Shown: positions 38,216-42,015 of the stretch, piece after piece
How the letters are laid out: each line of letters begins with the position of its first letter
How positions within the stretch are numbered: the stretch's first letter is position 1
Assembly (NCBI GenBank): GCA_017462015.1
Contig: JAFTRX010000043.1
Location: 1 to 42,015, forward strand
Direction: 5' to 3'
Length of the DNA: 42,015 bases
DNA from: Lentisphaeria bacterium
GTDB lineage: Bacteria > Verrucomicrobiota > Lentisphaeria > Victivallales > Victivallaceae
The notes under the pieces: generated by a model
The model's database searches: none
Seen by the model: only the letters and a program-made list of their open reading frames with translations
What the model was told of the DNA's origin: nothing
Made by a program: the position numbers and the translations under genes

Positions 38216-38292
38216 TGGTACACCCGGCGGGATTCGAACCCACGACCTTCTACTCCGGAGGCAGACGCTCTATCCAGCTGAGCTACGGGTGC
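38216..38292 (-). tRNA. tRNA-Arg (anticodon CCG)
   Basis: Minus-strand cloverleaf: acceptor GCACCCG/CGGGTGT, D-arm GCTCAGCTGGATAGAGC, anticodon loop CTCCGGA (CCG) and T-arm GTGGGTTCGAATCCCGC, with encoded CCA at 38216-38218. The length is 77 nt. It borders the AT-rich element; its 5' end faces the integrase. Confidence 0.95.
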
Positions 38293-38426: not shown

Positions 38427-38460
38427 ATTCCTGTCAAAATAAAAAAAGATGGAGATATTA

Positions 38461-39903
38461 ATGACTATAAGAAAAATAAAAGGAAAATTTTATTACGAGG
38501 TCATGATCAATGGCAAACGCTACAATGGCACCTGCAAAGGGTGTACTACAAAAATGCAAGCGGTCAAATTTGCTACAGAGGATATTGCTCAAAGAACGCG
38601 TACAGAAAATGATAGCGTTGAAATCCAAATTGCAAGATGCGAAGAGCAAATACGAGTGTTGCGTGGTGGTGTTTCTATCAAGTTGAGTGATGCTTTTGAT
38701 AGAGCACTCAGTAAATCAGATAGACAGGTCAGTGCAAAAACAGTAGCTCAAAATAGAAGCAGTTTTAATGACTTCAGAGTATTTGCCCAAAGAAAATATG
38801 GGGTAATTGATGTTGATAAAGTTTCCGCAGATATCGCCCGTCAGTATATACTATATGTCAGACAGAATGGCAGATTTGTTCAACGTGGAACATATATTCG
38901 TGGAAATAAAACGATAAAATTGAATAACTACAGCAAATTATTGTCTGTTGAGTCAATAAACAAAATAATTAAGGTTTGCAGATGGGTGTTCAGTAAGTTA
39001 ATGTTGGAAGCAAAGTTGGATTCAAATCCGTTCGCATATGTCTCTCTTGATACCAAAAAAAACGAAAGTAGAGAGCCATTTTCGGATGAAGAAATCAGGC
39101 AGATTATATTTGCCGATGACCAATTTTGTGTGCCGTTATTCCGTATTGGACTGTATACGGGATTGCGCGAAGGGGATGTTTGTTGCCTTAAGTGGGAAAA
39201 TATTGATTTCAGAAAAAATCTTATTCATTTAACAATGCAAAAAACTGGCGAGGCAGTTCGTATTCCAATATTGGATGGCGAATTTTTAATGTCATTGTAC
39301 AATTCCTCCGAATATGTTTTACCGGAACATGCGAAGATGTATCAAAATAATAAGAGTGGCATAACGTACAGATTAAAAGCTTTTTTGGCAAAACTTGGAA
39401 TTAAAAGTACACGTAAGTTATCAAAGCGTGACAGGGTTGTTAGTGTGAAAGATTTTCACTCTTGTCGTCATACTTTTGCTGTGATTTGTGCTCACAGAGG
39501 AATTTCTTTGAGTGTAGTACAAGCCGCGTTGGGACACACCAGCCCTAAAACGACTGAAATTTATTTGCAGCATCAAAGGTACGAGGCGTTGCAAACTGAA
39601 TTTAAAAAATTTTCTTTATTTGACTTCAAAGTGGCAAAAAATGATATATATAACAGCATTAGACTTTCCAATTCACTGTCAGAAGGAGGAGAATCCATAA
39701 GCCGTTTTAGCGTAAAAAATCCAAGGTTATTTAAAGTGATGAAGGAAATATGCGAATTTGTTCCTCCAGAGAACTTGAAAAAAATAATGGAGGAGTTGGG
39801 ATTAAAATATTTCCCCAACGAGATTTCAGAAATACCCCATCCTGTTCCAGACTGTGAAATGCCAATTCATTTGATAGATGATTTGGAAAACGTTGCGGTA
39901 TAG
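38461..39903 (+). CDS. Tyrosine recombinase / integrase
   Basis: Site-specific recombinase of an integrative element (480 aa). It has an N-terminal Arm-like domain (MTIRKIKGKFYYEVMINGKR) and a SAM-like core-binding domain (about 75-190). The catalytic domain has Arg236 (LYTGLREGD), His333-x-x-Arg336 (FHSCRHTFA), His359 (ALGHTSPKTTEIY) and nucleophile Tyr368. A 110-residue C-terminal extension follows. ATG 38461 follows GGAG by 8 nt. It is strongly AT-rich, unlike the genes before it. It is the only gene here ending in TAG; if TAG is read as sense, it would extend 13 codons to TAA at 39940. Confidence 0.92.
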   Translation: MTIRKIKGKFYYEVMINGKRYNGTCKGCTTKMQAVKFATEDIAQRTRTENDSVEIQIARCEEQIRVLRGGVSIKLSDAFDRALSKSDRQVSAKTVAQNRSSFNDFRVFAQRKYGVIDVDKVSADIARQYILYVRQNGRFVQRGTYIRGNKTIKLNNYSKLLSVESINKIIKVCRWVFSKLMLEAKLDSNPFAYVSLDTKKNESREPFSDEEIRQIIFADDQFCVPLFRIGLYTGLREGDVCCLKWENIDFRKNLIHLTMQKTGEAVRIPILDGEFLMSLYNSSEYVLPEHAKMYQNNKSGITYRLKAFLAKLGIKSTRKLSKRDRVVSVKDFHSCRHTFAVICAHRGISLSVVQAALGHTSPKTTEIYLQHQRYEALQTEFKKFSLFDFKVAKNDIYNSIRLSNSLSEGGESISRFSVKNPRLFKVMKEICEFVPPENLKKIMEELGLKYFPNEISEIPHPVPDCEMPIHLIDDLENVAV

Positions 39904-40030
39904 TTTATTTCAATTTTAAACCGCCGCCAGTTGCGATTGTAAGTCGAGGTGACTAAATTATTGCAAATTTGTTGATCGCGCCCAGAATTGTTTAAAATAA
40001 AAATAACAACATTTAAGTGATAAAAGTTCC

Positions 40031-40036
40031 TATAAT
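40031..40036 (+). promoter_or_regulatory. Possible -10 box before the recoded gene
   Basis: TATAAT at 40031-40036, 54 nt before ATG 40090, without a convincing -35. The gap 39904-40089 shows nothing else I can name. Confidence 0.35.
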
Positions 40037-40089
40037 GGTAATCAAGGTACTATAGAGATAATTTATTAAGATTAATAGAGGAAAAAAAT

Positions 40090-41328
40090 ATGATCATGAA
40101 TATGAGGATGAAGTATTAGGATTTGTTTGATATAGAAAATCAATATGATTAGAGTATAAAGGTTGATTTTTACAGATATTCAGAACATGAAGAGGTACAT
40201 AGAATTTCAGAAATAATCTTGTCTGAAATGAATTTGAGCAGTTTCAAAAAAAGAGATGTTTATAAGATAAAAGATTACATAAAAAATTTGATTTGCAACT
40301 TTTATATTGCATATAAGATAAAAAAATGTGTTGCCATTCCCAGAAAAAAAGCCTATTATTCGGAATATTCAAATTTTGCATTTGGAAAAATAAGTTTCAG
40401 ATTTTTTATGTTTTCGTTGGATTTCCTCGTGGAAAACAAATATGTTTCTAAAAAAACTGGGTATAAAGCATTTGGAGGCAACCACAAAAGCAAACCAAGT
40501 AAATATTGGGCTGTAGAAAAGCTCTACTTGCATTTTAACAATATAAAAGCAGATGATATTTTCTCTGTTTCTACTCCTCCAATAATATTGAAAGACGAAT
40601 GCAAAAATCCCATTGATTTCAAATAGACTCCTGCTCTAAGAAAACTTAAAAAAACGATTTCTAAAATAAATGAACTTTATGAATCTTCAGACATCAGGAC
40701 AGTTATTACAAATGAAAGAAACACAACGAGATTATTTCCACATTTAACGGCAATATTCAACAACAGCTCATGGAAAGAAGGTGGTCGACTGTATTCGACG
40801 GTATATCGAGGTGTTTATTCTTACCAAACATTAGCAAAAAATGAAAGAAAAAATATAAAAATTAATGGAAAAGCAACCATAGAATTGGATTATTCCAGCT
40901 TGCATTTAACAATATTGTATGCAAAAAAAGGATTAATATTGGATAAAGACCCGTATGGGTTTGATCTATGCCGAGATTTGGCCAAAAAAGCGATTTTAAT
41001 ATTGATAAACGCAAGGACATAGTGTGCCGCTGTAAAAGCATTGAATCGAGAATTTCAATACACGATAGACTGCCGTTCGATCGTGGCGGCGGCAAAGCAT
41101 TTTCATCAGCCGATAAAAGAATATTTCGGCAGCGGAATTGGATTAAAGCTTCAAAATGAAGATGGAAAAATTGCATTGACGATAGTTGATTATTTCAGAA
41201 AGCGAGGAATCGTTTGTCTGCCTGTACACGATTCTTTTATTATCGCGAAAAAATACTCAGACTAGCTGCGAGAAGTCATGCAGAAAAATTTTTATCTCCG
41301 TTATGGTGTCGCGATTGGAATACATTGA
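40090..41328 (+). CDS. Polymerase-palm-like protein with five in-frame TAG codons (amber-recoded)
   Basis: The frame runs 413 codons from ATG 40090 (AGAGGA 7-8 nt upstream) to TGA 41326. In-frame TAG occurs at 40117, 40150, 40624, 41020 and 41263 (residues 10, 21, 179, 311, 392). There is no TAA, TGA or frameshift. Read with TAG as an amino acid, it resembles a family I recall from integrative elements and phages. It has a winged-helix-like YVSKKTGYK region, INELYESSDI, NNSSWKEGGRLYS, and INGKATIELDYSSLHLTILYA (motif A-like Asp267). KAILILINA, YFGSGIGLKLQ and CLPVHDSFI (motif C-like His380-Asp381) follow. The fold resembles PolA/T7 RNA polymerase palms. Homology continues on both sides of each TAG. 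A pseudogene with five amber mutations is the main alternative. Confidence 0.72.
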
Positions 41329-41532: not shown

Positions 41533-41561
41533 TTGAATATTGTTTTTGAATGTGATATATT
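41533..41561 (+). promoter_or_regulatory. Putative promoter before the structured region
   Basis: TTGAAT (41533-41538), 17-nt spacer, TATATT (41556-41561). No ORF follows, so a noncoding transcript through the hairpin at 41640 is possible. Confidence 0.5.
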
Positions 41562-41639
41562 AAGCGCTGACTATTGACAGGGACAAATGTTTCCGAATAT
41601 CAATAGGGCTAATTGACAACCGTTATATTTCAGCAAATG

Positions 41640-41774
41640 TCTCGAAAATCCGCCAAGAAATAAAGACTTTTTGCAGTAATCGCAGATGAAATGTATCCGG
41701 TAGGATTGTGTCTACACATCTTGCCGGACGTTCTCCAGCATGATTACTGCAGGTTCTTGGCGGAACCTTCGAGA
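41640..41774 (+). ncRNA. Candidate structured RNA: 135-nt nested hairpin
   Basis: Four nested helices share one axis. TCTCGAA (41640-41646) pairs with TTCGAGA (41768-41774). TCCGCCAAGAA (41649-41659) pairs with TTCTTGGCGGA (41754-41764). TGCAGTAATC (41672-41681) pairs with GATTACTGCA (41742-41751). TCCGGTA (41696-41702) pairs with TTGCCGGA (41721-41728) and continues inward. I cannot match it to a known RNA family. It could also be a DNA-level recombination or replication site. Confidence 0.5.
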
Positions 41775-41785
41775 CTGTGTTTGGG

Positions 41786-41810
41786 AACGTTCGGTTTTTA
41801 TTTGAACGTT
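41786..41810 (+). repeat. Short hairpin next to the structured region
   Basis: AACGTTC (41786-41792) and GAACGTT (41804-41810) pair around an 11-nt T-rich loop. No U-tract follows, so it is not a typical terminator. Confidence 0.5.
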
Positions 41811-42015
41811 ACCAAGCATACTGGATTTCGCAGCAAAAAGTTGTGGAATCGGCGAGCTTACTAAAGTTTAGGGGATTCCGATTGTGAGAACGATAACTGC
41901 TTCTACAGCATTTAAGATACCGTTTTGCGGCATTGTTTTTCCGCAGTCCGCATCTTCGTTATCCTCTGCAGTTTTTCGAAACTCTGAAAAACTGTCTTGC
42001 GCGAACGAAGTGAGC

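Follow-up and report, generated by a model that had tools for sequence, protein, structure and literature searches.

A TAG-bearing frame beside an integrase gene

The window analysed here is a 42,015-nucleotide stretch of contig JAFTRX010000043.1 from a Lentisphaeria bacterium, the genome of which is referred to as G000. Near its right end lies a single plus-strand frame (40090..41328) of 412 residues and a TGA stop. Translation of the window shows five internal TAG codons in this frame and neither TAA nor TGA, as the preliminary description of this DNA had reported. A second copy of the gene is found in another genome of the same genus, Lentisphaerae bacterium SIG96 (SUWK01000010.1, referred to as G008), so that each TAG codon may be considered in terms of its aligned column in the two genes. 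The features of the locus are as follows.

38216..38292, minus strand: tRNA-Arg (ccg), 5' end toward the integrase gene
38449..39903, plus strand: tyrosine recombinase (integrase) gene, 484 aa, no internal TAG, stop codon TAG
40024..40041, plus strand: promoter-like 18-mer AAGTTCCTATAATGGTAA with a TATAAT core, 48 nt 5' of the polymerase ATG
40077..40081, plus strand: Shine-Dalgarno-like AGAGG, read by eye, 8 nt 5' of the polymerase ATG
40090..41328, plus strand: gene for a predicted phrog_4756 / divPolA2-type polymerase, 412 residues, five in-frame TAG, TGA stop
40117..40119, plus strand: TAG 1, column common to G000 and the G008 sister gene
40150..40152, plus strand: TAG 2, column common to G000 and G008
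40624..40626, plus strand: TAG 3, G000 only; Gly in G008 and D, E, D, A, D, D in six other relatives
41020..41022, plus strand: TAG 4, G000 only; Glu in G008 and E, V, T, K, E, D in six other relatives
41263..41265, plus strand: TAG 5, column common to G000 and G008; E, R, A, K, E, E in six other relatives

The AGAGG sequence bears out the good start site that had been claimed for the frame. It had also been argued that decay of a gene in such DNA should give mostly TAA, and this reasoning holds. When the stop codons that lie one substitution away in this gene are weighted by base composition, the expected fractions are 0.54 for TAA, 0.26 for TAG and 0.20 for TGA. Under this expectation, the probability that all five stops of the G000 gene would be TAG is approximately 0.001. 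For the nine distinct TAG columns of the G000 and G008 genes taken together, all of them TAG, the corresponding value is approximately 5e-6 if the columns are independent. The five other frames over 40090-41328 contain, in sum, 58 TAA, 44 TGA and 15 TAG stops. Protein motifs do continue through the TAG codons, as had been noted: for both IDFK-TAG-TPAL and NART-TAG-CAAVKAL, the aligned relatives carry sense codons at the TAG positions.

The polymerase frame starts 186 bases past the integrase gene, which matches the Pfam Phage_integrase model (E = 1e-19) and the phrog_1 integrase family (E = 8.1e-43). With an integrase gene adjoining and cellular genes filling the rest of the contig, the assignment of the gene to an integrated element is supported. 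The DNA from approximately 38300 onward is AT-rich relative to the genes that precede it. Since only 687 bases separate the polymerase gene from the contig end at 42015, the element is incomplete in the window and its right end is unseen. A search for attachment sites returned no convincing direct repeats flanking the G000 gene or the insert that carries the G008 gene, and a comparison of the G008 tRNA-Arg region with the window gave no useful flank in common. The 18-mer pattern AAGTTCNTATAATGGTAA has a single match in each of G000 and G008, in both genomes upstream of the polymerase gene, and none in the rest of the 34 genomes of the genus; it had no matches in IMG/VR.

The stretch from 41604 to the contig end at 42015 is strongly structured (RNA fold z = -7.7 for 41560-41960). 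It recurs in 22 of the 34 genus genomes with up to six matches per genome, appears intergenic by eye, and had no credible Rfam match. The stretch is a candidate for an undescribed non-coding RNA or a dispersed repeat.

Protein family and standard-code relatives

Three pieces of the protein between the TAG codons match phrog_4756 (E = 8.8e-4, 5e-22 and 1.2e-17), a family annotated as function unknown, and the whole place at 40090-41328 matches it at E = 9.5e-55 with a tool that reads through TAG. A tblastn search with a piece of the G000 protein matched 169 phage records, chiefly from Rheinheimera, Vibrio and Aeromonas phages. A piece of the G008 protein matched 121 phage records, ICP1 among them, and three plasmid records. 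When a profile of 26 intact relatives was compared with four PolA-type sequences, a match was obtained with a probability of 95% (E = 4e-8) and an alignment spanning the GR, DYS, R...K and HD motifs. Loci L092, L095, L097 and L124, the frames of which are seemingly misjoined or truncated, were excluded from this comparison, as were three of the seven PolA loci (L136, L139 and L140) that had no usable frame.

None of 19 aligned members of the family matched a Pfam polymerase model at an E-value of 0.1 or better, and no NCBIfam polymerase match was obtained for them either. A search of solved structures by sequence gave a weak PolA match only (E = 0.95). Because no Pfam polymerase model matched, the polymerase call is based on the profile comparison and the published family. 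A reverse transcriptase was also considered and rejected, with RVT_1 unmatched in G000. The protein is thus assigned to phrog_4756 and to a divergent family A polymerase with predicted activity, in support of the polymerase-like product that was first proposed. The ordinary DNA_pol_A family (PF00476) has no match in G000 and was matched in just six of 31 genomes from the order.

In PMC11348598, divPolA2 is defined from the barba phages of Rheinheimera, and the authors propose a role as a DNA polymerase in repair, or perhaps as an RNA polymerase. From the phages that they share, phrog_4756 and divPolA2 would be one family. The protein described here is of the same phrog_4756 type, barba phages of Rheinheimera are among the matches of the G000 piece, and the family A palm motifs are present in the profile that includes this family. 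The setting differs. divPolA2 is described in large phages that use the ordinary code (PMC11348598), whereas the present gene adjoins an integrase gene in a small chromosomal element and appears to use TAG as sense.

Among 137 genomes of the order, eight contain the gene, and the six other than G000 and G008 have it without internal stops. A wider scan yielded 31 distant members in IMG/VR; together with the loci from two further genomes, all 33 have a frame that is open over the whole match in the standard code. In a tree calculated without L092, L095, L097 and L124, for the reason given above, the two TAG-bearing genes form one clade (100/100) that joins four standard-code Lentisphaerae genes with support of 90/85; the remaining two, from G080 and G106, are placed elsewhere. 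Since the TAG-bearing pair is nested with standard-code Lentisphaerae genes, this group is the most likely place of origin of the recoding. Each of the six standard-code polymerase genes in the order has a recombinase gene of the tyrosine or serine type no more than approximately 3 kb away, which suggests that the order holds a family of small recombinase-plus-polymerase elements.

The sister gene and the residue at TAG

The gene is present in two of the 34 genomes of the genus, G000 included. In G008, it encodes 409 residues with seven TAG codons, a TAA end and no other internal stop. The two proteins are approximately 50% identical (203 of the 404 columns in the alignment, a count that includes the three shared TAGs). 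Of the nine TAG columns, three are common to both genes, two occur in G000 only and four in G008 only. The first TAG is codon 4 in G008; the same TAG is codon 10 in G000, or codon 4 when counted from an internal ATG. Neither gene has a frameshift, and the conserved GGRLY and HDSFI motifs are intact in both.

The differences between the two genes number 147, 117 and 229 at codon positions 1, 2 and 3, respectively. Over 396 codon pairs, a codon model rejects an omega of 1 with twice the difference in lnL being approximately 204 (lnL = -2733 at omega 0.05, -2831 at omega 1). A likelihood profile was used in place of an omega estimate because omega ran to the boundary, with silent sites saturated. 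The shared TAGs are most simply explained as older than the split of the two genes; TAG codons would therefore already have been present in the gene while the constraint was acting.

These data bear directly on simple decay, which was the first explanation tested. A pseudogene that gained its stops through decay would be consistent with a host that reads TAG as stop and with the position of the G000 copy at a contig end. Such a history is ruled out in its simple form by the restriction to TAG in two lineages over all nine columns, the three columns shared by G000 and G008, the strong constraint on the protein since they parted, the absence of a frameshift in either copy and the grouping of the two genes as sisters in the tree. 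It is considered highly improbable. Only two TAG-bearing copies are known to us, and they come from unlinked MAGs.

The residues found in relatives at the TAG columns are chiefly polar and acidic. Summed BLOSUM scores over seven of the nine columns, the other two having too few aligned relatives, are highest for Glu (9.2), followed by Asp (4.5), Lys (3.0) and Gln (2.8). An empirical model over all nine columns gives 6.0 for Glu, 3.5 for Asp, 1.4 for Asn, 0.4 for Ser, 0.0 for Pro and -0.9 for Gln, with Trp, Tyr, Phe, Leu and Ile all at -13 or lower. The nine-column analysis used 22 of the 31 viral loci as well as L123 and L124; the remaining loci were left out as near-copies or as fragments at contig edges. 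The Glu-minus-Gln score of 6.9 falls outside the 5-95% range of -8.8 to 3.1 for true Gln sets, drawn from just 17 Gln columns, and within that of 2.2 to 9.5 for true Glu sets; sets of Asn columns also fit this score.

The preliminary description had invoked the reassignment of TAG to Gln (genetic code 15) and had looked to homologues for the residue at the five TAG columns. The restriction to in-frame TAG and the constraint on the protein agree with a reassignment; the homologous columns, on the other hand, favor Glu, and then Asp and Asn, over Gln. Since new TAGs may tend to arise in loops, where acidic residues are common, TAG probably specifies either Glu or Gln. If TAG is Glu here, this would be a meaning that it is not known to have in phages.

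Host code, decoding and the nature of the element

RF1 is above the cut-off in both G000 and G008. Because none of the 27 host frames of at least 150 aa in the window (1-38200) ends in TAG, a recoded host was tested as an explanation. It was rejected given the presence of RF1 and the use of TAG to end eight of the 218 host frames of at least 200 aa in 340 kb of G000 (contigs C26 and C19). Nor does any host frame present the multi-TAG pattern: the same 340 kb contain 157 TAG-open frames with a length of 300 codons or more, of which 144 have no TAG, 11 have one, two have two and none has three or more. TAG is a rare terminator in this host, and a TAG-recoding phage would therefore harm it little.

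In G008, the polymerase gene is accompanied by genes for two serine recombinases, one of the invertase type and one large, and for an SNase homologue; all three end in TAA and are free of internal TAG. As read by eye, the insert seems to be approximately 6 kb in length and to interrupt a prepilin-like gene; next to the polymerase, no gene for a phage structural protein was recognised. Two small frames follow the polymerase gene on the same strand with close spacing, and both have internal TAG codons. The first has one TAG; the second begins 1 nt past the stop of the first, has GGAGGG just 5' and contains up to four. A hairpin followed by T's comes after the pair. Since no convincing relatives were found for either frame, their identification as genes is based on this anatomy. 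The best reading is that TAG serves as a sense codon solely in the replication-like genes and not in the recombinases. The claim that the element uses TAG as sense is accordingly supported for the polymerase gene and too broad for the element, given that the G000 integrase has no internal TAG and ends in one.

A tRNA with a CTA anticodon was not detected among 43 tRNAs from G000 and 40 from G008, obtained by running ARAGORN on Rfam tRNA places. Both sets are incomplete, with that of G000 having no tRNA for Phe or Ile. No tRNA of any kind was found on the 56 kb G008 contig that holds the insert (L011, L012, L019 and L020). The lack of a suppressor tRNA in host or element, which the preliminary description had named as evidence against its proposal, is therefore observed as far as incomplete genomes allow; TAG as sense is retained on account of the constrained sister gene. 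As this gene excludes simple decay, the missing CTA tRNA is read as a sign of decoding in trans. Decoding in cis or by the host, with a CTA tRNA lying in unassembled DNA or missed by ARAGORN and Rfam, is unlikely. The incomplete tRNA sets and the G000 element that reaches a contig end leave some room for it, and odd tRNAs, such as that of pyrrolysine, could escape both tools. Against this, the tRNA is absent from two independent genomes and from the long G008 contig around the insert, and the TAG-open host frames give no sign of TAG as sense.

From this analysis, a small integrative Lentisphaerae element may be considered to carry the gene for a functional divPolA2-type polymerase. TAG would be sense in this gene, the recombinases are in the host code, and translation of the polymerase would occur only with an outside suppressor; this explanation is favored with modest confidence. 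The host reads TAG as stop and, with its recombinases written in the host code, the element could integrate and persist at any time. The G000 polymerase, and in G008 the polymerase with the two small downstream genes, would be translatable only once an outside suppressor tRNA decodes TAG. The simplest source of this tRNA would be a TAG-recoding phage in the same cell, and the polymerase would then copy or repair the DNA of the element. A search for such a helper phage gave no close relative in the IMG/VR scans and none through the shared 18-mer. 

A more specific proposal, which is put forward tentatively and may well not hold, is that of a satellite locked by the genetic code, with polymerase genes that open only when another phage makes TAG sense. 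With TAG codons in series, five in G000 and seven in G008, output would fall as the fifth or seventh power of the suppression efficiency. Leaky readthrough would therefore yield practically nothing and full recoding near-normal expression, so that with so steep a gate the code change itself could serve as the induction signal.

The favored explanation has to be weighed against an origin from a temperate phage with TAG as a sense codon and a suppressor tRNA gene of its own, in which case the observed selection would have occurred in that phage and the two chromosomal copies would be untranslated leftovers. That divPolA2 genes are typical of large phages, that recoded gut phages are known (PMC10607447, PMC11210395, PMC10879173), and that no suppressor tRNA is found now would all be consistent with this origin. 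However, each of the six standard-code relatives has its recombinase close by, which makes a small element the usual setting of the group. No phage structural gene accompanies the G008 gene, the IMG/VR scans gave no close relative, and both copies retain an open frame, undamaged motifs and the 18-mer upstream. A prophage remnant is thus regarded as a rather unlikely origin.

Both TAG recoding in phages and divPolA2 are already known. In some TAG-recoding gut phages (code 15), only a subset of the genes is recoded, and this may act as a switch (PMC10607447, PMC11210395, PMC10879173). In-frame TAG as the only internal stop, a standard-code host and partial recoding are features in common with the Lentisphaerae genes. 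In contrast, the gut-phage cases are phage genomes, of which many encode a suppressor tRNA and have structural or lysis genes that are recoded, whereas the present case is a small element with a polymerase, no suppressor tRNA found, and columns that favor Glu over Gln.

The preferred reading, a small integrative element decoded from outside, also invites comparison with phage satellites. Satellites such as PICI or PLE are small integrated elements that rely on a helper phage. The Lentisphaerae elements resemble them in size, in having their own recombinase and a replication-like gene, and in that no structural genes were recognised. They differ in that no packaging or helper-linked gene was recognised, and a dependence on a helper would follow from the code alone. 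Among the matches listed, no paper about a recoded phage satellite was found in the literature. If the reading is correct, one mobile element can rely on the genetic code of another. The purpose of stop-codon recoding in phages is debated, and integration in the ordinary code combined with a recoded polymerase for which no suppressor tRNA was found would be natural evidence for a code switch as an expression gate. Gene callers can fragment such recoded genes in the chromosomes of bacteria, a setting that virome surveys for recoding do not cover.

Two of the standard-code elements encode a protein directly 5' of the polymerase, with 297 residues at L017 (6325-7218, minus strand) and 295 residues at L018 (8253-9140, plus strand). 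Neither has a Pfam match, and their first residues are alike by eye. This upstream protein is possibly a candidate partner of the polymerase.
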